DNA of 44,416 nucleotides, taken from positions 1 to 44,416 of the forward strand of contig JAUXTH010000010.1 in NCBI GenBank assembly GCA_030679035.1. Reading direction: 5' to 3'. A program made the position numbers and the translations under genes. Position 1 is the first letter of the stretch. Every line of letters starts with the position of its first letter. The notes below the pieces were generated by a model. That model had not been told where the DNA came from. It did not search any database and was given only the letters and a program-made list of their open reading frames with translations. The stretch is from Methylobacter sp. (GTDB lineage: Bacteria > Pseudomonadota > Gammaproteobacteria > Methylococcales > Methylomonadaceae). Shown here one piece after another: positions 4,432-44,416 of the stretch.

Positions 4432-5088
4432 TCACTTCACCCATTTGTTTCTTACAACAAAAAACGGGACAACGCAGCCTATCAATACGCACAAAATCAA
4501 CACGGCCCAAGTTACTTGGCTCCAGTCTACCGGATAAATATCGGCTTTGACCGGTTTGCTGATGCCGGGGATGCTGGGCAAATCGACATCGCCGCCATCG
4601 ACTTTTAACTGCGCCTTCATGCCTTTTTCCATGTGCTGAGCCAATTCGCAATGTACGAGGTAGGTTTTTTTCTGGCTGGGCACAATCAGTGAAGCTTTCA
4701 ATTCGCCTTGTCCGTAGAGTTCCAGGTGAAACATGCCCTGCGGGTAGATATAGCCCGGCAAGCCGTGAATCATCAATTGATGGCGGATCTGGTCATCATT
4801 GATGAAGGTGATATTGATTCGGGAGCAGGGCTTAACATCCCATTCCTGGTTGTCGAAAGCGAACATTTTACCGGGGAATTTCAGCGCGTGTTTTTGGCCG
4901 GCATGGATGGTGATGTTGACGTCGCCTGAAATCTTCGGGCAGTCTTTGGGCAGATTATCCCTGTTGGCGTTCATGATCATGCCTTTTTCATTCATCATCA
5001 TACCATCCATCATCGCCATGGTTTCGTCGGCAAATGCCGCGTGGCAATGAAAGCCCAGCATTATCAGGAGTGTCACTAATAATTTCAT
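4432..5088 (-). CDS. Membrane-anchored cupredoxin with Met-rich N-terminus
   Basis: The 218-residue exported copper protein has a signal peptide (about residues 1-20) followed by a Met-rich stretch (MAMMDGMMMNEKGM) of the kind that binds Cu(I). A plastocyanin-like domain spans about residues 55-165, with candidate type-1 copper ligands His103 (IRHQLMIHG), Cys147, His152 and Met153 or Met157 in VHCELAQHMEKGM. A C-terminal transmembrane helix (about 188-212) ends in a positive tail, leaving the copper domain in the periplasm. Its ATG overlaps the stop of the multicopper oxidase gene (ATGA), so the two are translationally coupled. It probably exchanges electrons with, or carries copper for, that oxidase. 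Confidence 0.8.
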   Translation of the reverse strand: MKLLVTLLIMLGFHCHAAFADETMAMMDGMMMNEKGMIMNANRDNLPKDCPKISGDVNITIHAGQKHALKFPGKMFAFDNQEWDVKPCSRINITFINDDQIRHQLMIHGLPGYIYPQGMFHLELYGQGELKASLIVPSQKKTYLVHCELAQHMEKGMKAQLKVDGGDVDLPSIPGISKPVKADIYPVDWSQVTWAVLILCVLIGCVVPFFVVRNKWVK

Positions 5089-6749
5089 AGCTTTTGCTTC
5101 CGTTTGTAAACCAGCACCACAAAGATAAACAGTCCTATGCCCAAACCGGCGGCCAAGCCAAAAATGATGATCTGAACATAATCGGGTGCAATTAAGCCGG
5201 CTTCTCCGAGTAATGGCGCAAAATCGCCTTCACCCCAGACCGCTTGTTTCTTGGCATAGTAATCTTTGTTGAATACTTGATCGAGCAGGGCGTCATGCAT
5301 TTTCGGCATGCCTTGTTCGTCAATCATGGGCTTGTAGGCCAGGATAGCCATGTTGCCGCCAGGCTCCATGCCGTCGGTTGTGGTGCCTGTCGGCACATGG
5401 TCATGAAACATCCAGAGGCCGGGGCCGTAACTGTCCAAGCCGTTGTTTCGGGTGCTCAGACGTAAATCAAGTCGTTGCGCCGGTGCGATGTCGAATACAT
5501 CCCGCGTTATCTGCGACCCCGCCGGTTGTTCAACGCCGTCATAAGCCGTGATGGTGGCCTTATGCCCGTGGATATGCAGTGCCACCAACGAGCGCTGGGC
5601 GTTGGCGACATGCAGTTTTATATCTTCATTTTCATTGGCGACGATCACCGCGTCCCTCAGCGTGTAAGGGAAGGAATGGCCGTTTAACATAAAGTAGTTT
5701 TCAAACGATTCGGTCATGTTGTATTCGCGGCTCATCCGGTGTGCGATTAGCCTTGGATCGTTCGCATTCTGTATGATTTTCGCCAGTTTTTTATCGACCG
5801 ACTGATAATACAAGTCGTATTCCTGGCTGTAGGATTTTTGCACAGCAACCGAAGGATGGCGCACTTGTCCCGCGCCGATATTAAAGGTTTGCACCCAGTT
5901 ATCGGGCTGATTTTCTTCGACGATAAACATGCCATTCAAGCCCATCATATAATGCTGGGCGGTTTGTACGTGGCAATGATAAAACATGGTTCCGGCATGC
6001 CGGGGCTGGATTTCATAGGTGTGGCTTTTGCCGGGGAACACCGGGTGTTCTTCCATGCCGTCATTATCGTCGCCGGCAGCGGTTACCCAGGCATGGTCGA
6101 CGCCGTGAAGATGGATGGTGTGCGGCAAATAATGGGTATTTTCCAGCGTGACATAAACCTTGTCGCCCTGTTCAACCCGAATCACCGGCGAGGGCGCGCG
6201 CAGCAGCGGATTGGCGACCAGCGAGTTGAAGTTCTTAAGCGCCATGCCGCTGGATTTTGGCGCGAATACCCAAAGCCCAGGCTGGATGCCGGGGGCAATA
6301 TCAAAGGTGTTGATCAGGAAGTCGCCGTCGGGACTCGCGCCGTTTAGCTCCACGACTTCCAGTTTGATACGGATGACGTCGGGGTCGCCGTCGTTGTCCA
6401 GGTCATCGGACATAGTCAACGCATCCTGAGCCAGATGCGTCTGCATCAAGGTCTGCATTGATACGTTGTTGGTGCCTTTGACAGCCACGGCAATGTCGTA
6501 AGGATTGTCCGGTTCGCAGGACGGCGCGGCTTCGATTTTTACGCCGTCGATAACCTGCGCCTGTCGCCAGTCGGGATGCTCGTTGGAGCAGGGTTTTTCC
6601 ACAGCGACGGTTTCTGCTGAGCGGTTAAAGACGGTTGCGGGGGGCGTAATGCCTGCCTTTTGTGACGGAGTCGGTACAAAATATACGGCAACAGCGGTTA
6701 ATACGGCGATAAGCAGTATTGCTAAAAGGATGAGGTATTTTTTGGGCAT
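5085..6749 (-). CDS. Membrane-bound multicopper oxidase with type-1 copper site in the first domain
   Basis: This 554-residue protein has an N-terminal hydrophobic segment (about 5-24) and a C-terminal membrane helix (about 524-548). Four trinuclear-cluster His pairs are visible: His213/215 (TIHLHG), His258/260 (FYHCH), His392/394 (LHIHGH) and His449/451 (MFHDH). The type-1 cysteine, Cys259, lies in the first of these domains with His266 and Met268/269 after it. The C-terminal motif has Asp450 where three-domain laccases have Cys. This is the reverse of classical laccase and like two-domain, type-B enzymes. An extra domain of about 150 residues precedes the first cupredoxin. It probably oxidises Cu(I), metal or phenolic substrates in the periplasm, with the coupled downstream cupredoxin as partner. 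Confidence 0.85.
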   Translation of the reverse strand: MPKKYLILLAILLIAVLTAVAVYFVPTPSQKAGITPPATVFNRSAETVAVEKPCSNEHPDWRQAQVIDGVKIEAAPSCEPDNPYDIAVAVKGTNNVSMQTLMQTHLAQDALTMSDDLDNDGDPDVIRIKLEVVELNGASPDGDFLINTFDIAPGIQPGLWVFAPKSSGMALKNFNSLVANPLLRAPSPVIRVEQGDKVYVTLENTHYLPHTIHLHGVDHAWVTAAGDDNDGMEEHPVFPGKSHTYEIQPRHAGTMFYHCHVQTAQHYMMGLNGMFIVEENQPDNWVQTFNIGAGQVRHPSVAVQKSYSQEYDLYYQSVDKKLAKIIQNANDPRLIAHRMSREYNMTESFENYFMLNGHSFPYTLRDAVIVANENEDIKLHVANAQRSLVALHIHGHKATITAYDGVEQPAGSQITRDVFDIAPAQRLDLRLSTRNNGLDSYGPGLWMFHDHVPTGTTTDGMEPGGNMAILAYKPMIDEQGMPKMHDALLDQVFNKDYYAKKQAVWGEGDFAPLLGEAGLIAPDYVQIIIFGLAAGLGIGLFIFVVLVYKRKQKL

Positions 6750-11177: not shown

Positions 11178-13814
11178 ATGTCAAACTTCGCTAAAGAAAT
11201 AATACCTGTCAATCTCGAAGATGAGATGAAACAGTCCTATCTCGATTACGCTATGAGCGTTATCGTCGGTCGAGCCCTTCCAGATGTCAGAGACGGCCTA
11301 AAGCCGGTGCATCGCCGTGTTTTATACGCGATGAGCGAGTTAGGCAATGACTGGAACAAACCTTATAAAAAATCGGCGCGTGTAGTCGGTGACGTGATCG
11401 GTAAGTATCACCCGCATGGCGATACGGCGGTTTACGACACGATGGTACGGATGGCGCAGAATTTCTCAATGCGCTATATGCTGATCGACGGGCAGGGCAA
11501 TTTCGGTTCGGTAGACGGCGACTCGCCTGCGGCGATGCGTTATACCGAAGTGCGCATGTCAAAAATCGCCCATGAACTGCTGGCCGATTTGGACAAGGAA
11601 ACGGTTGATTTTGCGCCGAACTATGATGAATCCGAATCTGAACCGAAAGTATTGCCGACACGGGTGCCGACTTTATTGATTAACGGTTCGTCCGGTATCG
11701 CGGTGGGCATGGCGACCAATATTCCGCCGCATAATTTGTCTGAAGTGATCAGCGCCTGTCTGGCGATGATCGATCAGCCGGATCTGACCGTACATGACTT
11801 GATGGCTCATATCCCAGGGCCTGATTTTCCTACCGCCGCCATTATCAACGGCGCTTCCGGCATTTACAACGCCTACACCACTGGGCGCGGCAAGATTTAT
11901 CTGCGCGCACGATGCCATTTTGAAGACATCGGCGACAGCAGCCGTCAGGCGATTATCACCACGGAACTGCCTTACCAGGTCAACAAGGCCAGGCTGCTGG
12001 AAAAGATCGCCGAACTGGTTAAGGAAGGCAAGCTTGAAGGCATTTCCGGTTTGCGTGACGAGTCGGACAAAGACGGTATGCGCATGGTGATTGAGCTGCG
12101 TCGCGGCGAGATGCCTGAGGTGGTGTTAAACAATCTGTACAAGCAGACCCAATTCCAAACGGTGTTCGGCATCAACATGGTCGCCTTGCTGGATGGCCGT
12201 CCGCATTGCATGAATCTCCATGAGATTATCAGCGCATTTATCAATCACAGACGGGAAATTGTCACCCGCAGAACGATTTATAACCTGCGTAAGGCTAGGG
12301 AAAGGGCGCATATTTTAGAAGGGCTTGCGGTTGCGTTAGCCAATATCGACGAAATGATTGCGCTGATCAAGGCGGCTGCCACACCCGCCGACGCTAAAGT
12401 CGGTTTGTTGGAGAAAAGCTGGGATGCAGGACTGGTTGCAGCGCTGCTGGATCGCGCCGATGCGGATCGTTCAAGGCCGGATGATTTGGCCGTAGAGTTC
12501 GGCATTCATGCCGGAATTTATCGTCTGTCAGAAACCCAGGCTCAGGCCATTCTTGAATTGCGTCTGCATCGCCTGACCGGCCTGGAGCAGGACAAGATAG
12601 TCAATGAATACAAGCAGCTGCTGGAACAAATTGATGAGTACCTGTTTATTCTGGGCAGCGATGTCCGCCTGATGGAAATCATCAGGGAAGAGCTGGTGGC
12701 GATCAAGGAGCAGTATTCCGACGAACGGCGCACAGAAATTTTACAAAATCATTCGGATTTGTCCGATGAAGACCTGATTACCGAGGAAGATATGGTCGTG
12801 ACCATGTCGCACGAAGGCTATGTCAAGTCTCAGCCGCTTACCGATTACAAGGCGCAACGGCGCGGCGGCCGCGGCAAATCGGCGACCGCTACTAAAGAGC
12901 TGGATTATGTCGACAAGCTGATTGTGGCCAATACCCACGATACTATTTTGTGCTTCTCTTCGCGGGGCAAGGTTTACTGGCTTAAGGTCTATCAATTGCC
13001 GGTTGCCAGCCGTGCGGCCAGGGGTAAGCCTTTCGTCAACTTGTTGCCATTGGAGCAAGGCGAAAAAATCAATGCGATGCTGCCGATACGAGAATTTACC
13101 GACAGCAAATTTATCTTTATGGCAACATCGGCGGGCACCGTTAAAAAGACCCCGTTAAAAGAATTCGAGCGCCAACGCACTAACGGTAAAATCGCGATTG
13201 ATTTAAGAGAAGACGATACGCTGGTGGGTGTTGCGGTGACCGATGGACACCAAAACGTGCTGTTGTTTAGCAGCACCGGCAAGGCGGTCTGCTTTAACGA
13301 AGAAGATGTGCGCTCGATGGGCAGAACGGCATCCGGCGTGCGCGGAATTCGTTTGCAGGAAGGGCAAAAAGTCATTTCCCTGATTATCGCTTCCGAAGGC
13401 ACGGTGTTGAATATCACCGAGAACGGCTACGGCAAGCGCACCAAGCTCGAAGAGTTTACCTGCCATAAACGTGGCGGCCAGGGTTTGATTGCGATACAAA
13501 CCTCTGCGCGTAACGGCGCAGTGGTTGGCGCGGTGCTGGTTAACGACAATGACGAAATCATGCTGATTACCGATGGCGGTACTTTGGTTCGTACTCCGGT
13601 TGACGGCATTTCTGTGGTTGGCCGCAATACTCAGGGCGTAACGATTATCAAGCTTGATAAGAAAGAAAAAGTGATCGGGGTTGACCGTATCGAAGGCTTG
13701 GCAGGGGTGGATGATGCCGATGATGAAGACGCTCTTTTAGATGATGCTGAATCAGAACTGGATGCATCGGATGAAACAACAAATGACGATAGTGAATCAG
13801 GTGAGGAATCGTAA
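11178..13814 (+). CDS. gyrA: DNA gyrase subunit A
   Basis: The 878-residue subunit forms GyrA2GyrB2, which introduces negative supercoils using ATP. The catalytic tyrosine is Tyr122 in AAMRYTE. The quinolone-determining region reads [10 protein letters not shown], with Thr at position 83 (E. coli numbering is identical) where E. coli has Ser, and Asp87 intact. Thr83 is the normal residue in Pseudomonas-type gyrases, so no resistance is implied. The GyrA box QRRGGRGK lies near residue 560 and the six-bladed C-terminal DNA-wrapping domain follows. The last 35 or so residues are a strongly acidic tail rich in Asp and Glu, as in E. coli GyrA, where it regulates supercoiling. Its TAA overlaps the serC ATG (TAATG). 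Confidence 0.98.
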
Positions 13815-34733: not shown

Positions 34734-34964
34734 ATGTCACATTTAATGACTTTCTATCAATTGAACAAGGCTCGACTATGCCGTTTTCATTCTGCAACGC
34801 CTGAGGCGGTTTATCTCCAAGCTTGCACAGGCGTAGCGCAATGCGCTAATTTCCTCACAACGCACAAAGTCGCCGTTGGGCGCTTCGATACATTCACCCG
34901 TAATTCGAAAACCCCGCCAGCGCTTGAAAGACTTCGCATAATACATACAGGCTTTTTTGCATAG
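34734..34964 (+). CDS. Short ORF running into the att site, doubtful
   Basis: An open frame of 76 codons (ACTGVAQCANFLTTHKVAVG in the middle, ending RLRIIHTGFFA) crosses the left half of att site 1. The corresponding frame at att site 2 is also open and reads RLRIIETG at the same place. That shared frame and the ORF's reasonable composition suggest a small conserved phage gene ending in the att site. No start signal is convincing, and it may be chance. Confidence 0.3.
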   Translation: MSHLMTFYQLNKARLCRFHSATPEAVYLQACTGVAQCANFLTTHKVAVGRFDTFTRNSKTPPALERLRIIHTGFFA

Positions 34965-35340: not shown

Positions 35341-35391
35341 AAGAACGATTCGCATCAAGCGCGAGGACAGGGGTAAGTAGTACTGTCCTTT
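35341..35391. repeat. Conserved hairpin block upstream of phage regulator (copy 1)
   Basis: AAGAACGATTCGCATCAAGC continues into a hairpin AGGACAG (35364-35370) / CTGTCCT (35383-35389). The block recurs almost unchanged at 44367-44416, 9.03 kb away. Its position at the end of the accessory gene and before the regulator suggests a replication origin, terminator or recombination point. Confidence 0.6.
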
Positions 35392-35749: not shown

Positions 35750-36784
35750 ATGATCGATTGGTTCCGCGGTGAAATAGAATTTCTACACGACCCTATACCG
35801 GCAGGTCGTGTGCTTTCTATTGAAGCCAGCGGGGAAATTACCTGGGAATGTGTTAAGTCGATAGATTGCCGATCCAGTCACGAAACAAGCTTAAAAATCA
35901 AATCAACGGGCGGTAATGGCGAGGGTAGGGCAACCGCCTTAATGATTGACGGCAACCTCTGCAAGTTCTTACAGGGCCATAACGTTTTTGGGTCTCGTGA
36001 TTTGAATACACTCTTGTTGCTGTCCTTTCGCAAAGTCTACGAACTACATGCCGAGCATTTGCACGGTTGCTCAAGCCCCTTATTGACTGAAGCCAAGATT
36101 AAGAAGGGCGACTACAAAGTCAAAATGTTAGACATCAACGAACTTTATGATGTCGGCAATGATGCCAGTGTTGAAGCTTGGTTACATGCTGCCGGAATGC
36201 GTGCACGTTCCCGCCATGGTCGTAGCACTCGCGACAAAGGCACCGTTTACCTGGGCAAGAATTCACGTCGCTGGGCCATTAAGTTTTACAACAAAGCGCG
36301 TGAAATGATCGCTAAAGGCAAAACCCATGCTTTACCGGACTATTTAAAAAACATCGGCCTCGAAAAGTTTATTCAAGGCAAGCTTCGCGCCGAACTGCGC
36401 ATTTTTTCCAAGGAACTCGAAAAGCACGGAATCACCCACGGCTACCACCTAACCCCTGATCTTATCAATCAATTATTCAATGACTACTTGGGGAAAATTG
36501 ACATGACTACACAAGCCACTTTGCACGATGAGCAATTATTCAAAATGCCACGCCATTTAATGGGGACTTACCAGCTCTGGCGGCAAGGCGCCGATCTTCG
36601 TCAGCTTCTTTCTGAGGCAACCTATTTCCGGCATCGTAAAGCCTTGCTTGAGTATGGCGTGGATATTTCCGCCATGCACCTTGAACCCGAACACAACAAT
36701 GTTGTTCCTCTAATGCGCATCATAGAAGCCGTGCCGGTCGCTATCCCTGCATGGGCTTATGAGCGCGGTTTGATAGCGGCATAG
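35750..36784 (+). CDS. Phage replication initiation protein (gene II/X family)
   Basis: The 344-residue protein starts MIDWFRGEIEFLHDPIPAGR, the pattern of the Phage_CRI (pII) N-terminal domain, followed by KFLQGHNVFGSRDLNTLL. A Tyr-containing helix WAIKFYNKAREM and the C-terminal Phage_X-like domain (TYQLWRQGADLRQLLSEATY) follow. Such proteins nick the replicative form at the origin and start rolling-circle replication. The ATG 35750 is preferred to a TTG at 35699 in the operators. A Zn-finger-like gene follows 16 bp later. Family assignment is strong, though catalytic tyrosines are not pinned down. Confidence 0.85.
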   Translation: MIDWFRGEIEFLHDPIPAGRVLSIEASGEITWECVKSIDCRSSHETSLKIKSTGGNGEGRATALMIDGNLCKFLQGHNVFGSRDLNTLLLLSFRKVYELHAEHLHGCSSPLLTEAKIKKGDYKVKMLDINELYDVGNDASVEAWLHAAGMRARSRHGRSTRDKGTVYLGKNSRRWAIKFYNKAREMIAKGKTHALPDYLKNIGLEKFIQGKLRAELRIFSKELEKHGITHGYHLTPDLINQLFNDYLGKIDMTTQATLHDEQLFKMPRHLMGTYQLWRQGADLRQLLSEATYFRHRKALLEYGVDISAMHLEPEHNNVVPLMRIIEAVPVAIPAWAYERGLIAA

Positions 36785-37055: not shown

Positions 37056-37414
37056 TGGTTACGCCAAATCCCAAGGCGCATATGTCGCCTAAAGACTTAA
37101 CCCGTGTCCTTGCGCTTGAAGCTCAAACCGTTCCCGGCTGGGGGCTTAACGATAAAGCGTTTCACGCTTCCTTTGCTGCCAATCGTGAAGCTTTCTCTTT
37201 TATTGCAAAGATTCACCAAGCCATTAAAGCCTTTTATTTGAACCAGGGGCATACCGTTGAGCAGTGGCAAGTTGTCAGCTCAAACCTTAAACAATTTAAC
37301 CGCGTTTGGCGTCAGTCGTTGGGATTGATGCCGGACGATTCACCACCGCCGTTGGCATTCCGCCGAGTTTTACCAAAACCTTCTTTCATACTTAATCAGG
37401 AAAAATCCATATGA
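37055..37414 (+). CDS. Phage protein of unknown function
   Basis: The 119-residue soluble protein is alpha-helical (AFSFIAKIHQAIKAFYLNQG) with a Pro-rich C-terminus (LMPDDSPPPLAFRRVLPKPS). It overlaps genes on both sides by 1 and 4 bp, and so is firmly part of the replication operon. No motif is recognised. Its place between Rep and the likely ssDNA-binding protein suggests a replication or regulatory helper. Confidence 0.6.
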   Translation: MVTPNPKAHMSPKDLTRVLALEAQTVPGWGLNDKAFHASFAANREAFSFIAKIHQAIKAFYLNQGHTVEQWQVVSSNLKQFNRVWRQSLGLMPDDSPPPLAFRRVLPKPSFILNQEKSI

Positions 37415-37725
37415 AATTTATAGTTGCTGCTGCATTCACTAACACGGGCATTGCTAAAGCCTCACAACAACCTTATTCAATGACTCGCGCACTGGTTTTA
37501 ATGCCGTTTACCGATGTCGAGAACTCCAATTTTCAATCACGCGGAGAGGGATTCAGTGCGGTTGAATTGTCGGTTGCTTCATCTTTTGCGACCCAATTTC
37601 AGAATCAGTTTAATTCGTCTTTTAAAGGTTCCCCCGTTCAAATGGAGCTTATTACTTCGCTGGATCGTGAGGGCCGAAATGTCATTGTCGGCCTTGAGTC
37701 TCCGCAAAATAAGACTTCGGCTTAA
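37411..37725 (+). CDS. Possible ssDNA-binding protein (pV analogue)
   Basis: The 104-residue protein (MKFIVAAAFTNTGIAKASQQ onward) is rich in beta-forming residues and aromatic residues, with no membrane segment despite the hydrophobic start. In inoviruses a protein of this size following rep coats the displaced single strand. Features compatible with an OB-like strand pattern are VQMELITSLDREGRNVIVGL at the end. There is no decisive motif. The ATG overlaps the preceding stop (ATATGA). Confidence 0.45.
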   Translation: MKFIVAAAFTNTGIAKASQQPYSMTRALVLMPFTDVENSNFQSRGEGFSAVELSVASSFATQFQNQFNSSFKGSPVQMELITSLDREGRNVIVGLESPQNKTSA

Positions 37726-37728
37726 ACA

Positions 37729-38034
37729 ATGACCGGAACAACTCAACGTGTTTTGGTTTGTGTGGATAGCGTTTCGGCTCCTACCTCTGCTTGGATTCTT
37801 GAGGCTTGCCCCGCTTACTTAAATAACGGTTCTACACAGTACCAAACTATCGCGGTTGTTCCGGCTTACGTGCTTGATTCAAGCATGGCTGCTGGTATTG
37901 AGGCTTCTTTAGGGCCTTTTGATTATGTTTATGCTGCCGGTCTCTGGACATTATCTTTTACCTTTGTTGTCGCTTTGTTTTTGGTTGCCCGATCATCGGG
38001 AGTCGTCATTAATTTTATTCGGGGTCGCACCTGA
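37729..38034 (+). CDS. Small single-pass membrane protein of the phage
   Basis: The 101-residue protein has one strong membrane helix near its C-terminus (YAAGLWTLSFTFVVALFLVA), followed by a basic RSSGVVINFIRGRT. N-terminal residues are polar and contain two cysteines (C11 and C27). Proteins with this topology and position, just upstream of the major coat gene, serve as minor virion-end or assembly proteins in inoviruses. Functional call is by position only. A terminator-like hairpin follows 12 bp downstream. Confidence 0.6.
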   Translation: MTGTTQRVLVCVDSVSAPTSAWILEACPAYLNNGSTQYQTIAVVPAYVLDSSMAAGIEASLGPFDYVYAAGLWTLSFTFVVALFLVARSSGVVINFIRGRT

Positions 38035-38069: not shown

Positions 38070-38087
38070 GTTGTAAGGAGTTTTATT

Positions 38088-38294
38088 ATGTTGAGAGTAT
38101 TTTTAGCTGCATTGTTGTCTTTTGCTTTCGGTTCAAGTGCGTTTGCTGTTGGCCCTGATATGTCTGGTTTGACCTCTGCCGTTGATTTTGGCACGGTTAC
38201 AGTTGCGGTTCTTGCTATCGCTGGCATGTTGGCCGTTGTTTATGTTGCTGTAAAAGGCGCATCAATTGGTTTGGCAATGCTTCGCAGCAAATAA
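38088..38294 (+). CDS. Major coat protein 1 (pVIII-like)
   Basis: The 68-residue precursor has a 20-residue signal peptide (MLRVFLAALLSFAFGSSAFA) and a mature protein of about 48 residues. The mature part is VGPDMSGLTSAVDFG, then a membrane helix VTVAVLAIAGMLAVVYVAV, then a basic end (KGASIGLAMLRSK), the layout of inovirus major coat proteins. The acidic start lies outside and the basic end contacts DNA in the virion. TAAGGAG gives a strong ribosome-binding site. A perfect terminator follows the gene, keeping this transcript short and abundant. A close paralogue lies 80 bp downstream. Confidence 0.85.
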   Translation: MLRVFLAALLSFAFGSSAFAVGPDMSGLTSAVDFGTVTVAVLAIAGMLAVVYVAVKGASIGLAMLRSK

Positions 38295-38309
38295 TTTACT
38301 GCGGATCGG

Positions 38310-38346
38310 AAGGGGAGCGTCTTTATTTGTCGCTCCCCTTTTTTTT
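38310..38346 (+). terminator. Strong rho-independent terminator between the two coat genes
   Basis: AAGGGGAGCG (38310-38319) and CGCTCCCCTT (38331-38340) form a perfect 10-bp GC-rich stem with an 11-nt loop followed by eight T. This is the strongest terminator in the window. The second coat gene and virion-end genes must be reached by read-through or a separate promoter. Confidence 0.9.
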
Positions 38347-38373
38347 GATTTTAAGAAAGTGAGGCTTTCCATT

Positions 38374-38580
38374 ATGAAAAAAATCGCCGCTTTAATCGCT
38401 GGTTTTTTTGCTTCTTCAAGTGCTTTTGCTGTCGGCCCTGATATGTCGGGGTTGATGAGTCATATTGACTTTGGAAGCTCTATTGTTTCGGTGCTTTCTA
38501 TTGCGGGTGCTATCGCTGTTTGCTGGGTGGCCGTTGACGGCGCTTATATGGTGTTAGACATGATTCGTTACAGGAAGTAG
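38374..38580 (+). CDS. Major coat protein paralogue 2
   Basis: The 68-residue precursor has signal MKKIAALIAGFFASSSAFA and a mature part starting VGPDMSGLMSHIDFG, identical or similar to coat protein 1 through VGPDMSGL. The helix reads IVSVLSIAGAIAVCWVAV; then DGAYMVLDMIRYRK. It differs in a Cys in the helix, an Asp where protein 1 has Lys after VAV, and a more basic end (RYRK). GAGG lies 16-19 bp upstream. Being downstream of the terminator, it is likely made in lower amounts and may be a minor or specialised coat subunit. Confidence 0.82.
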   Translation: MKKIAALIAGFFASSSAFAVGPDMSGLMSHIDFGSSIVSVLSIAGAIAVCWVAVDGAYMVLDMIRYRK

Positions 38581-38642
38581 TTAAAACTTTAGATTTAGGG
38601 GGTGTCACTGTGTTGGTGATGCCTCTTTTTGTTGGGGTAGTT

Positions 38643-38726
38643 ATGACGGTTAATGATCTTTGGTATTTGTTTATTTTTGTTTGGGGCTTGATTTCTGCCT
38701 GGGCGGTTGTTGAGGGTTTAAAGTAA
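38643..38726 (+). CDS. 27-residue membrane peptide (candidate pVII/pIX analogue)
   Basis: Between the second coat gene and the adhesin gene, ATG 38643 opens a 27-codon frame: MTVNDLWYLFIFVWG then LISAWAVVEGLK, ending TAA. It is one hydrophobic helix with charged ends. This is the size and nature of pVII or pIX, the virion-end peptides of f1. An in-frame ATG at 38619 would give 35 residues. GGGG lies before the ATG 38643. The stop is 11 bp before the next start, so coupling is likely. Confidence 0.6.
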   Translation: MTVNDLWYLFIFVWGLISAWAVVEGLK

Positions 38727-38737
38727 AGGGGTTGGTT

Positions 38738-40000
38738 ATGCGCTTTCGTCGATTTTTGGTTGTTTTTCTTGTTTTGTTGTTGGCTCATCAGAGCTATGTG
38801 TATGCTTCAATCGTTGGCTCTGCTGCTAAGGTGGCCGCTTCGGTATCTGGTGTTATTGAGGCTCAATTGATTAGACGGGGATTCGCCGCTAACGATCCGC
38901 GTTTTCAAGCTACTTTGGCGGCGGTGTCAGCTGTCGCGAATAATTCCGTTGCTGGTACTGCGGGGGCTGCTGCTATGGCGTTGGCCGGTATTGCTGGATT
39001 GCCGGTCTGGGCAACTATTGCCGTGGGTCTTGGTGTTGGTGCATTGGTTTATGGCATTTATAGCTTTACCAAGGATTCATCCGGGAATCTTGTTTATTCG
39101 GCTCCGGGAGCTACTGATCCAGCTGGTTCTTTATATTGGACTTATACGAATAAAGCCGGTGTGACTAAGACTTATTTGCAGAATGTTTCTAATGCTAATT
39201 TTATTTGTAACGATTATTGGACATCTACGTTTTGCGGCGGTCGTACTGGTAGTGCTACAACAATCACTTCTTGCACCGTTACTTATTCCCCTGGTAGCGC
39301 TTGCCTTCCTAATCCTCCTCCACAGTATGCGCCTTTTAATAGCATGTCTTCATCAGTAACACCTGGTTCTGATTATGTTGTTGCTCCTGTAACGATTACT
39401 GGCAACATGGACACTATAGCGCCGTCCTTGCCCGCCGCTGCTTTGGCCGCTCCTATTTCTGATAATTCACTTGCTCAGGTAACTGATGCGCTTTATAAGC
39501 AAGCTGCCGCTCAGATAGGCTATTCCGGTATTCCTTATTCGATGGTTGATCCTGTAGGGGCTACTGATGCGGCTACTTGGAAAGCGGCCAATCCTTCCGC
39601 TGTTCCCACGATGGCTGATGTTCTTTCGCCTATTGGCAGTGCCGTTGCTTTGCCTGATCCTACGGCCGCAACTTCCGGATCGACCACACCGACAACGGTA
39701 ACACCTACGCCGGTTGATTTAGGCGTTGATCCTGGTGTTGCTCAGCCAGGGCTTGAAACAACTCCGACCGCAGCACAGATTCTTGCTCCTGTTTTGGGTT
39801 TGTTGCCCACCTTAAAATCTTTTGTGGTGCCGTCTCACACGGCTACTTGTCCACGCCCTACGGCTTCGGTTTGGGGCAAGACTCTCATTTTATCCGGTCA
39901 TTGTGATTTGCTTGATGCTCCTGCCGTTCACGATACGCTTTATGCGGTGATGGCTTTGGTTTGGACGATGGTAGGTCTTTTTATTGTGTTAAAGGCATAA
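38738..40000 (+). CDS. Adsorption protein (pIII / TspB-like minor coat)
   Basis: The 420-residue protein has an N-terminal signal (MRFRRFLVVFLVLLLAHQSY) and an Ala/Gly-rich hydrophobic segment (about 60-100). A Ser/Thr/Pro-rich middle has multiple cysteines. A C-terminal cysteine-bearing domain (TCPRPTASVWGKTLILSGHC) precedes a final membrane anchor (LYAVMALVWTMVGLFIVLKA). That plan fits pIII/OrfU proteins and TspB of Neisseria phages. It would sit at the virion tip and bind the host receptor. The middle is low-complexity with TSGSTTPTTVTPTP. Codons prefer T-ending forms, unlike chromosomal genes. Confidence 0.75.
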   Translation: MRFRRFLVVFLVLLLAHQSYVYASIVGSAAKVAASVSGVIEAQLIRRGFAANDPRFQATLAAVSAVANNSVAGTAGAAAMALAGIAGLPVWATIAVGLGVGALVYGIYSFTKDSSGNLVYSAPGATDPAGSLYWTYTNKAGVTKTYLQNVSNANFICNDYWTSTFCGGRTGSATTITSCTVTYSPGSACLPNPPPQYAPFNSMSSSVTPGSDYVVAPVTITGNMDTIAPSLPAAALAAPISDNSLAQVTDALYKQAAAQIGYSGIPYSMVDPVGATDAATWKAANPSAVPTMADVLSPIGSAVALPDPTAATSGSTTPTTVTPTPVDLGVDPGVAQPGLETTPTAAQILAPVLGLLPTLKSFVVPSHTATCPRPTASVWGKTLILSGHCDLLDAPAVHDTLYAVMALVWTMVGLFIVLKA

Positions 40001-40009
40001 GGGGGCTTT

Positions 40010-40303
40010 ATGTTTGGGATTTTAACGTCTGCGTTTAACGTTGTGCTCGGCTTTGTTTTTCGGTCGATCATTGTTAAGTTTGTGTTGTTTTTTGGCCTTT
40101 TCTTTATCACAACAGAGTTCATTCAAATTTTGGTTAGCTCTGGTTTGCTTCCTACTGCATCGTCTTTAAATGGCGTTTTTGGCGGAATTCCTGCTGGGGT
40201 TTGGTATTTCCTCGATCTTTTTAATTTTTCAATGGGATTTTCAACGGGCCTTTCTGCTTTTGTCACTCGGTTCATTATTAGGCGCATTCCGGTGATTGGA
40301 TAG
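40010..40303 (+). CDS. DUF2523 membrane protein (pVI analogue)
   Basis: The 97-residue protein has three hydrophobic segments, and the C-terminal phrase FLDLFNFSMGFSTGLSAFVTRF plus IIRRIPVIG is the DUF2523 signature. Members lie between pIII and Zot in inoviruses and are equated with pVI, the cap protein released at the virion's end. It starts 9 bp after the adhesin stop (GGGGGC before the ATG) and ends 13 bp before the Zot start. Confidence 0.82.
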   Translation: MFGILTSAFNVVLGFVFRSIIVKFVLFFGLFFITTEFIQILVSSGLLPTASSLNGVFGGIPAGVWYFLDLFNFSMGFSTGLSAFVTRFIIRRIPVIG

Positions 40304-40316
40304 GGGAGGGGTTTCA

Positions 40317-41414
40317 ATGCCAATTAATGTTTACACCGGTCTTATGCGTTCCGGCAAAAGTTACGAGGTTGTTTCAGAAGTGATCGTTGAGGCTATCGCC
40401 TTGGGCCGTCGTGTTGTTACTAACGTTGATGGAATCTCGAATGATTTGGTTCGGGAATATGTCGCAGAGAAGCGCAAAATCGATATTGATAAACTCGGTC
40501 ACGTTTTTCACGTTGTTAATGAGGATGTTTTTAAGGCTGATTTTTTTCCTTATTTTGATGACCATCGGGGCGAACACACGGACACTATAGCTCAACCAGG
40601 GGATTTAGTTTGTATCGATGAAGCGTGGCGTTTTTGGGGGTCGGATCAAAAGATTCTGAAAAATCACAAATCTTTCTTTCTTGAACACGGCCATTTCACT
40701 CATCCAGATACCGGTATTGCTTGCGATTTGGTAATGATGATTCAGGATATGGGAACGCTGCACCGGTCGATAAAAGCGGTTGTCGCTTTCTCTTTTCGTA
40801 CACACAAGAAAGTTTCCCTGGGCATGGGCAATACGTACAGTGTGACCATGTGGGAAGGCTCCAAAATGGTCAAGGGTTCGTTAATTGGTTCTTGGGTTCG
40901 CCGTTACGATAAAAAGGTCTTTCCGCTGTATAGCAGTTTCAAGGGTGGCGCTGATGGCAAGATGGTCAATGTTGATAGTCGTCAAAACATATTCAATAAT
41001 CCTAAGCTATGGCTTGGAATCGTGGCGCTTTTTGTGGTTGGTTTCTTTTCGCTTCGTACTATCTGGGGTTTTTTCCATCCAACGCCCGTTGCCGTTGTTG
41101 CCGATACTAAAACATCGGATGCTAAAGGCTTAGACGGTAAGGGTTCCGCTTCTGCCGATGTTCCTGGTACAACTCAATATGCTGCGGCCAATCCGGTGCC
41201 GGTTCCTGCCACTCCTGCTTTTTCTGAATCCTGGCGTTATGCCGGACAACTAAAGCTGCCGAATACGACCTATTCGGTTGTTATGGGTTCCTCTGGCCAT
41301 GTTCGTTTTGAGTCACCTTCTGTTTTTCATAACTCCGGCCTTGCCTCGGTCGGTGATGTGGATGGAAGCAAGGTAACGTCTTTTTCTGGTTCTTCCGTAG
41401 GGTTAAAAAAATGA
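40317..41414 (+). CDS. zot: Zonula occludens toxin family / pI assembly ATPase
   Basis: The 365-residue protein has an N-terminal ATPase domain with Walker A YTGLMRSGKSYE (residues about 6-17) and Walker B LVCIDEAWRFWG. A membrane helix follows at about residues 229-250 (LWLGIVALFVVGFFSLRTIW). The C-terminal 115 residues are periplasmic and Ala/Pro-rich. Zot/pI drives ATP-dependent extrusion and assembly with pIV. In Vibrio the periplasmic part has toxin activity, which cannot be presumed here. The ATG 40317 (MPINVYTGLMRSG) has GGGGAGGGG upstream. It overlaps the secretin gene by 4 bp. Confidence 0.9.
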   Translation: MPINVYTGLMRSGKSYEVVSEVIVEAIALGRRVVTNVDGISNDLVREYVAEKRKIDIDKLGHVFHVVNEDVFKADFFPYFDDHRGEHTDTIAQPGDLVCIDEAWRFWGSDQKILKNHKSFFLEHGHFTHPDTGIACDLVMMIQDMGTLHRSIKAVVAFSFRTHKKVSLGMGNTYSVTMWEGSKMVKGSLIGSWVRRYDKKVFPLYSSFKGGADGKMVNVDSRQNIFNNPKLWLGIVALFVVGFFSLRTIWGFFHPTPVAVVADTKTSDAKGLDGKGSASADVPGTTQYAAANPVPVPATPAFSESWRYAGQLKLPNTTYSVVMGSSGHVRFESPSVFHNSGLASVGDVDGSKVTSFSGSSVGLKK

Positions 41415-42706
41415 AAGTCTTTATTCTCGTGATGGCTTTTTTTTTGGCTTTTTCTGTCCATGGCGCTGAACACAAAAAGGCACTCCCAGGCGGCGGCGTT
41501 TCGTTTGAGCTTGATTCTGTGCCGGTATCCGAGATTGTGCGCGTGATATTTACCGAAGTCGTGAAAACTCAATACGTTCTCGATCCGGCAATAATAGCCG
41601 ATACTCGCCCCGCCTCTTTCCGTTGGAATTCTGAAACGGGTAACGTTAGGCCTTTCCTCCTGGCTTTTTTGGATTTGATGGGCTACCAGATTAAAACGGT
41701 GTCTGGCGTTGATCTGATAAGTACCAAACAGGAAGTTAAAGACGTAGAGAAGCCGGAAGTCGAGAAAGAAACGTTTGTTTATCATCCTCGTTTTCGTGAC
41801 GGTTCGTATTTGGCCGATTTACTCTCTCCACTGCTTAAGGGTTCATTTACCGCTTCACGAGCCGTACACGCCCCAGAATCATCAAAACAAGATAACAGCA
41901 TGGTTCCACCTGGTTCCGCTGCCGCAATGGTCGATAGAAAGTCGGATACGCTTGTTTTCTCCGGCACCGATAAGGAAATTGAAAAACTTAAGAAATTGTT
42001 GGCCGAAGTTGATACTTCAAGCGGTGAGGTGCTGGTACGTGGTTTGCTTTACGAGGTTAACACGGGCAATCAACAAGGCACCGGTATACAGCTGGCCGCT
42101 TCGCTTCTTTCCGGCGCTCTGATGACCGGCTTTGGCGGTCCTATCGCTCCCGTTGTATCTACAGCTATGAATAGCTATTTGCATTACAAGGGTTCCCCTG
42201 TGGCAGGTGTTTCAGTTGATGCCGTCATGCAGGCGCTTTCGACCGATACACGATTTAAGGTCGTTTCCTCGCCGTCATTGCGGGTTTTATCCGGTTCAAC
42301 GGCTCATATCACCATAGGTCAGGACGTGCCTATTCTGGGCGCTTTATCGTTTCCCCAGGGGGCAGGGCAGGCGGTTCAATCTGTCCAGTATCGTTCCGCT
42401 GGCGTATTGTTCGATTTAACCCCGTCTGTTCGTGAATCGGTGATTGATCTTAAAATTAATCAACAAGTCTCTAGTTTTGTGCAAACAAATACCGGCGTTA
42501 ATAACTCGCCGACATTGACAAAACGGGAAATATCGACGAATGTTTCCACGAATACCGGTGATGTCATCATATTGGGCGGCTTGAATGAAACCAAGTCAAC
42601 CGAGACAGATGCCGGTTTTTCCTTTATCCCCGATTGGTTCTTTTCTCATACTGAAGATAAGAGCGAGTCTGAAATTATTTTGATTTTGCAAATAACAAAG
42701 GTTTAG
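41411..42706 (+). CDS. Phage secretin (pIV, GspD family)
   Basis: The 431-residue protein has a signal peptide (MKVFILVMAFFLAFSVHGAE) and N-domains about 25-190 (FELDSVPVSEIVRVIFTEVV), a phage N0/STN type domain. The secretin pore domain follows, about 195-431, including VVSSPSLRVLSGSTAHITIG then QDVPILGA, ending at SEIILILQITKV. It forms the outer-membrane gated channel for virion export. CTX phage borrows the host EpsD instead; this phage carries its own, like f1. The start overlaps Zot (ATGA). The stop is followed by a strong hairpin. Confidence 0.88.
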   Translation: MKVFILVMAFFLAFSVHGAEHKKALPGGGVSFELDSVPVSEIVRVIFTEVVKTQYVLDPAIIADTRPASFRWNSETGNVRPFLLAFLDLMGYQIKTVSGVDLISTKQEVKDVEKPEVEKETFVYHPRFRDGSYLADLLSPLLKGSFTASRAVHAPESSKQDNSMVPPGSAAAMVDRKSDTLVFSGTDKEIEKLKKLLAEVDTSSGEVLVRGLLYEVNTGNQQGTGIQLAASLLSGALMTGFGGPIAPVVSTAMNSYLHYKGSPVAGVSVDAVMQALSTDTRFKVVSSPSLRVLSGSTAHITIGQDVPILGALSFPQGAGQAVQSVQYRSAGVLFDLTPSVRESVIDLKINQQVSSFVQTNTGVNNSPTLTKREISTNVSTNTGDVIILGGLNETKSTETDAGFSFIPDWFFSHTEDKSESEIILILQITKV

Positions 42707-42720
42707 GGGATGTATCCAAT

Positions 42721-42781
42721 TCCACACCCCAAAACTTCGCCCGGAGTGCGCAAGCGCGAGGACGAAGTTTTGTGGTGTGGA
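42721..42781. promoter_or_regulatory. 19-bp-stem hairpin after the secretin: packaging-signal/origin candidate
   Basis: TCCACACCCCAAAACTTCG (42721-42739) pairs with CGAAGTTTTGTGGTGTGGA (42763-42781) at 18 of 19 positions around a 23-nt loop that holds its own CGC/GCG pairs. In f1 the packaging signal hairpin lies directly after gene IV. The single-stranded genome would fold here. No T-run follows, so it is not a typical terminator. Confidence 0.55.
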
Positions 42782-42804
42782 GTTATGCTAAGTACTTTTC
42801 TGAG

Positions 42805-44204: not shown

Positions 44205-44298
44205 ACTTCGCATAATAGAAACAGGCTTATGTAGAAAAGCCCCGGTGGATAATGAGATCCCGCCGGGGCTTTTTTGCATAGGGCGCATTATGCGCAGT
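44205..44298. other. Right dif-like attachment site (inverted pair, full form with inner hairpin)
   Basis: First arm ACTTCGCATAA at 44205. The opposite strand of 44271-44298 begins ACTGCGCATAA (9 of 11 to the E. coli dif XerC box), then TGCGCC, then CTATGCAAAAA. Between the arms AAAAGCCCCGG (44235-44245) pairs perfectly with CCGGGGCTTTT (44263-44273), followed by T: a fork like the folded attP of CTX phage. The hairpin can also act as a terminator. Site 1 has lost 43 bp of this, probably between GGCTT repeats. Confidence 0.65.
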
Positions 44299-44366: not shown

Positions 44367-44416
44367 AAGAATGATTCGCAAAAACGCGAGGACAGGGGTA
44401 AGTAGTACTGTCCTTT
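44367..44416. repeat. Conserved hairpin block (copy 2) at the window end
   Basis: AAGAATGATTCGCAAAAACG continues to the same AGGACAG (44389-44395) / CTGTCCT (44408-44414) hairpin as 35341-35391. In the prophage this block sits before the regulator gene, so a second element probably starts just outside the window. The gap from 43652 to the end is otherwise covered by the sites listed. Confidence 0.65.

Follow-up and report, generated by a model that had tools for sequence, protein, structure and literature searches.

Inovirus filaments are usually treated as a polymer of one major coat protein. A prophage in the window, i.e., the 44,416 nt stretch of Methylobacter sp. DNA analyzed here (contig JAUXTH010000010.1), carries two genes of the major coat protein (pVIII) type in tandem, termed A and B. 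This raises the question of what the second gene contributes to the phage. On balance, the evidence leans towards B being a low-abundance accessory coat subunit that would co-assemble with A.

The prophage and its two coat genes

The prophage spans about 34.9–44.2 kb and is located at the window end. The presence of pII, pVIII, pVI and pI/Zot genes in canonical order identifies it as a member of the Inoviridae. It is flanked by direct repeats 9,274 bp apart, the exact pattern of which occurs nowhere else in the same genome. The features are as follows.

34931–34954 (+): left direct repeat D9, attachment-site-like, partner of 44205–44228
35753–36784 (+): pII-type replication initiation protein (Pfam Phage_CRI, 3.6e-51; G2P_X_C, 1.4e-16)
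37411–37725 (+): RstB-like protein (phrog_929, 2.6e-9), which we take to occupy the ssDNA-binding/pV position
37729–38034 (+): 101-aa protein with a C-terminal membrane helix, immediately 5' of pVIII (phrog_3679, 2.1e-6, unknown function); a minor tip-protein candidate
38074–38080 (+): Shine-Dalgarno sequence of A, TAAGGAG, read from the sequence
38088–38294 (+): gene A, pVIII major coat protein (phrog_2186, 1.1e-13; relatives found)
38308–38346 (+): T1, intrinsic terminator 3' of A, also present in phages without B
38357–38364 (+): Shine-Dalgarno sequence of B, from alignments; a near-identical stretch is present in locus L007, which has no B gene
38374–38580 (+): gene B, second and more acidic pVIII paralogue (phrog_2186, 3.1e-10; dN/dS 0.14)
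38597–38632 (+): T2, hairpin or terminator-like element 3' of B; the stretch folds at -21.7 kcal/mol (z -4.8)
38643–38726 (+): 27-aa membrane peptide (MTVNDLWYLF...), with relatives in many of these phages; a pVII/pIX-like minor coat candidate
38738–40000 (+): pIII-position (adsorption) protein, named from its position (phrog_7187, 3.8e-61, unknown function in PHROGs)
40010–40303 (+): pVI-type protein, DUF2523 (Pfam, 3.4e-12; phrog_974, 1.2e-20)
40317–41414 (+): pI/Zot-type assembly protein (phrog_197, 1.2e-63)
41411–42706 (+): ORF at the pIV position, presumably secretin-like, 97–99% identical in L001, L003 and L062
44205–44228 (+): right copy of the flanking direct repeat, partner of 34931–34954

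Two other structures are found at the margins of this map. A very stable long hairpin is present at positions 42717–42785, just 3' of the pIV-position gene (-43.3 kcal/mol and z -6.0 for 42700–42790), and is possibly a terminator, an origin or a packaging signal. Further near-identical direct repeats occur at both prophage ends (35357–35391 and 44382–44416), which suggests that another element or repeat unit adjoins the prophage.

An earlier note on this DNA described A and B as tandem coat paralogues, and this description is borne out. Both ORFs are present, and the two proteins are identical at 37 of 64 positions by BLASTP (E 3e-21). Each precursor is 68 aa and, as determined from sequence and alignment, consists of a leader and one further membrane helix; the predicted mature start, VGPDMSGL, is the same in both, with the cleavage site read from the sequence. 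Both proteins match the virion-protein family phrog_2186, and neither reaches the cut-off of any family in a Pfam search. A search for solved homologues of the coat protein yielded none, with one chance match. Among isolated phage records there are three weak matches for A and one for B, at one place per record; the record matched by B, OR148977, has one annotated gene beneath the match.

The two genes share a block of 41 nt (90% identity), and recent gene conversion between them was considered. The block mostly reflects protein conservation, and the comparison of A–B dS in the core (0.48–0.67) with the overall value (0.85–1.06) is based on about 11 synonymous sites. Gene conversion is thus possible, but it is not needed to explain the block.

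The proteins differ in the charge of the C-terminal end. The Lys/Asp difference given in the earlier note is real (VAVKGA in A, VAVDGA in B), as is the difference in the basic end: the last 16 residues have a net charge of +3 in A but only +1 in B. B contains a further acidic change, LDM in place of LAM, and thus has two Asp residues in this segment. A table of the last 16 residues in 39 tree rows shows that all 30 non-B rows with a leader (29 distinct) have a net charge of +3 or +4 and all four B rows (three distinct) one of +1. For the five leaderless second proteins, truncated ahead of their extensions, the value is +1 or +2. Where B has Asp, all 16 coat proteins of alignment A9 have Lys, and two rows outside that alignment (L083 and L091) have Arg. 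B is therefore not a redundant copy, since its charge and Asp residues are unlike those of the other leader-bearing coats. The two Asp residues are seven positions apart and would lie on the same helix face. In f1, as described in the available text of PMC10175506, four lysines per pVIII line the DNA cavity. By analogy with f1, the C-terminal end of B would face the lumen, and B would be ill-suited to coat DNA by itself.

Retention, expression and loss of gene B

Relatives were surveyed for co-retention of both copies, as the earlier note had proposed, and the arrangement A–T1–B is found in the window and in all six B-bearing viral contigs (L001–L006). In the viral_contigs set, relatives of A are present at 16 loci and B in six contigs, all of which are also A loci. 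A B-profile search returns the same six contigs and L038, the latter being the single coat protein of L008, matched at 57%. Four of the A–terminator–B contigs were aligned with the window, with the non-carriers L007 and L008 among the rows. When contigs of 99.8–100% identity are collapsed, three B lineages remain besides the window (L001/L002, L003/L004/L005 and L006), i.e., four are known in all. A family search with B through 237 genomes gives four matches, but B itself only in its own genome; the other three match through other coat genes. With the A3 profile, a search at class level through 369 genomes returns only the own genome.

A comparison of B from the window and L006 shows dS 0.414 and dN 0.058, a ratio of 0.14 (Fisher p 1.4e-5 on rounded counts). 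The corresponding values for A are dS 0.656 and dN 0.106, a ratio of 0.16. By these ratios B is under purifying selection and is as constrained as A. The last 28 residues are invariant across the four aligned B proteins, and the B proteins of the window and L003 are identical. The decaying duplicate that the earlier note named as the case against its proposal is not seen, given the purifying selection and the intact ORF in relatives. The A–B dS of 0.85–1.06 shows that the split between the two genes is old. In the protein tree B forms a clade with 99/100 support, a long stem and short tips; a burst of change followed by constraint would fit the acquisition of a new role. The coat proteins are short and the trees correspondingly weak, and the tree does not place the origin of B, either in the A of its own lineage or in another phage (A and B of this group as one clade, p-AU 0.207, 50 columns).

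The strong terminator claimed between the two genes holds up: T1 folds at -23.2 kcal/mol (z -4.0, with 0 of 200 shuffles as good) and has a U8 tail. A simple consensus terminator scan leaves it out, its loop exceeding the length that the scan allows. Terminator folds also follow pVIII in L007, L008 and L009, which have no B (z -3.9, -4.7 and -3.8). T1 is therefore the ordinary post-pVIII terminator and not a switch for B. Directly after B is a second hairpin with a short U-run, T2, which was absent from the earlier note, as was the 27-aa ORF. The window and L001 have a strong T2, but the L003 stretch does not reach significance (z -0.9) and that of L006 prefers another fold (z -2.2), so a terminator dedicated to B is not a general feature. 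A simple sigma-70 scan detected no promoter-like site in the A–B interval; the scan is crude and says little, with 2 sites in the 3.5 kb covered and 4.1 in shuffled sequence. Judged by eye, the Shine-Dalgarno sequence of B (GTGAGG) is weaker than that of A. With B behind the post-A terminator, no sigma-70 site between the genes and a weaker Shine-Dalgarno sequence, A and B are likely expressed unequally, B at the lower level.

L008 and L007 are close relatives without B. Locus L008 is 97–99% identical to the window in pII, the RstB-like protein, the 101-aa protein, pVI, Zot (262 of 365 aa covered) and pIV (235 of 431 aa covered). Identities are lower in a 119-aa protein (93%), an 84-aa protein (76%) and A (79%), and pIII shows a 58% match across half its length. 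L008 has no B; its nucleotide identity to the window is high as far as the coat genes, then drops sharply over the B region and a large part of pIII. The second such locus, L007 (= L062/G048), from Methylobacter tundripaludum OWC-G53F (NZ_PTIY01000005.1), is 97% identical to the window in Zot and 99% in pIV, with an unrelated-looking pII (22%), and also lacks B. The coat proteins at the NZ_PTIY01000005.1 and G048 loci are identical and the two are taken to be one record; the host genome of the window and G048 have a common genus code. In L007, T1 and a stretch resembling the Shine-Dalgarno sequence of B are present and are directly followed by the leader of the 27-aa gene. This apparent leftover of the leader stretch of B favours loss of B by deletion in L007. 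Distances between the A genes were also considered as an argument for this loss and were set aside: by dN the A of L007 is nearest L006 (0.034), but by dS it is nearer L003 (0.30) and the window (0.36) than L006 (0.43), and the protein tree leaves the matter open. The low dN between carrier L006 and non-carrier L007 indicates no visible adaptation of A to B.

Judged from these close relatives, B is dispensable, i.e., an accessory gene, and the relatives lacking it presumably make virions. Both minor tip-protein candidates, the 101-aa and 27-aa proteins, occur with and without B; B is thus additional to them.

Extra pVIII-like genes in other loci

A wider survey covered 47 loci, or 39 after eight repeated coat regions were dropped (L002, L004, L005, L026, L027, L034, L062 and L092). 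The set is biased in that a leaderless second protein was the query that fetched L092–L095. In agreement with the earlier note, a single pVIII is the rule in this sample, although several other lineages have extra pVIII-like genes. Five of the 39 loci encode a second leader-bearing pVIII: L087 and those of the four B lineages. L087 matches L090 along two long stretches, at 98.0% and 99.0% identity, which are separated by 236 bases with the extra pVIII gene in L087 (1531–1766) and by 25 bases in L090 (4221–4245). The first pVIII of L087 has no other relative in viral_contigs.

In four of the 39 loci, the position between pVIII and a gene of 27–33 aa holds a leaderless, C-extended pVIII-like protein:

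L012, 778–1026
L029, 6283–6555
L036, 5204–5527
L089, 3092–3394

The 3' end of each of these genes overlaps the start of the 27–33-aa gene by one to four bases. Proteins of this kind are found elsewhere in the locus in L011 and L095, and L066 is a weak case (E 0.016). Weak matches alone were not counted, as even the upstream minor protein gives a weak score in L084, L085, L087 and L090. Isolated phage records contain no match for the L029 coat or the L012 second protein. The leaderless proteins in this slot apparently represent a recurrent, unnamed minor structural gene, and pVIII-like genes recurring in one slot suggest a minor structural component that is unrecognized in this phage group.

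The 27-aa motif is present in 25 of the 47 loci, with looser forms seen by eye in L029, L036, L089 and L095, and membrane-helix proteins of 71–117 aa lie 5' of pVIII in all 12 loci examined. The second pVIII genes thus come on top of both minor-protein candidates.

Two further loci have unusual layouts. L077 (G003) encodes four small pVIII-like proteins in one inovirus locus (2215–2355, 2358–2492, 5563–6018 and 6026–6244), with a tandem pair ahead of a 26-aa gene and another two behind the Zot gene; two of the four have weak scores against the pVIII profile and two were judged by eye. L067 (G061) has two closely related inovirus prophages in tandem (5044–5250 and 11808–12014).

Possible roles of B and comparison with known systems

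The role of B that these data favour somewhat is that of a minority coat subunit. The product of A would be the ordinary major coat protein, and B would be made at a lower level because its gene is behind the terminator of A. B would be exported and cleaved as A is, having the exposed N-terminus and membrane helix of A, and could then join the growing filament as a minority partner. The Asp in place of the conserved Lys, and the second Asp seven residues on, would make its lumen end less basic, so that B alone would coat DNA poorly. It may be scattered among A subunits or placed at sites of weak DNA contact such as the filament ends. As an accessory module, B could be acquired, lost or exchanged, and close relatives would form virions without it.

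A more specific version is offered tentatively. The capsid may have two components, a basic pVIII doped with an acidic one, in which Asp36 of B pairs with Lys36 of a neighbouring A and tunes DNA packing, stiffness or end structure. B would then exemplify a broader tendency of these phages to add further pVIII-like genes in or close to one slot 3' of the coat terminator.

It is less probable that B is a third kind of minor coat protein, derived from pVIII and confined in few copies to a tip or junction at one end of the filament. The location of B would suit this: its gene follows T1, lies with the minor coat genes and is flanked by pVIII and the 27-aa gene, and the same slot in L012, L029, L036 and L089 holds a different, leaderless and C-extended pVIII-like protein. 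A less basic lumen end suits a DNA-free place, and the f1 tip described in the available text of PMC10175506 has a bond between pIX Glu29 and pVIII Lys40. However, L008 and L007, both close relatives, have no B, and B differs from its slot-mates in having a leader, no extension and no overlap with the 27-aa gene.

Doubtful also is a role in the inner membrane, where B would stay as a modulator, e.g., limiting assembly or superinfection by related phages. Presence in some close relatives and absence from others fits such genes, and some inovirus proteins cause superinfection exclusion according to the available text of PMC6813254. On the other side, B resembles a coat protein in its leader, exposed N-terminus and size, it is constrained like A, and no result here ties it to exclusion.

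The switchable capsid raised in the earlier note finds no support. B as an alternative full coat, with the phage switching between A-type and B-type filaments, would account for two complete precursors, but this is very improbable: the terminator follows pVIII in B-less phages as well, no inverted repeat of at least 22 nt (the length sought) flanks A and B, and B has a charge not seen in the other 30 tabulated coats with a leader. A recent, redundant duplicate that is being lost, to which the absence of B from L007 and L008 and the apparent leader leftover in L007 might point, is hardly credible with a dN/dS of 0.14, an ORF intact in the window and all six B-bearing contigs, an A–B dS of 0.85–1.06, and a well-supported B clade with a long stem and short tips.

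Compared with known proteins, the accessory subunit proposed here most resembles inovirus pVIII itself (phrog_2186) in precursor size, leader, GPD...DF mature start, one further helix and gene position. It differs in being a second copy in the genome, in the Asp for a conserved Lys and in a net charge of +1 versus +3 or +4. The Ff minor proteins pVII and pIX are likewise membrane helices encoded beside pVIII, are of low copy in Ff, and are leaderless and about 30 aa long. B is a clear paralogue of pVIII, with 68 aa and a leader, and the phage has two other minor-protein candidates besides; B is thus not of the pVII/pIX type. Lipothrixviruses, archaeal dsDNA filamentous viruses, have two paralogous coat proteins that are both major components. 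They share with the window phage two coat paralogues in a filamentous virus, but the viruses are unrelated.

A search of the open-access literature by title or abstract start gave no account of an inovirus with two natural pVIII genes. Roux et al. 2019 (PMC6813254) annotated 51 protein families as major coat proteins, and the available portion of that paper makes no mention of two major coat proteins in one genome. The closest parallel is engineered. Type 88 phage-display vectors are Ff phages with two gene VIII copies, and their capsid is a mosaic of both proteins, as stated in the available text of PMC6024655. The window phage likewise has two pVIII genes per genome, but the pair is natural, diverged and under selection, and a mixed capsid is plausible. 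If the proposed reading is true, a retained second pVIII whose lumen charge is altered would parallel the type 88 phages in nature, and the relation of coat charge to DNA packing and a tunable filament composition would become testable.
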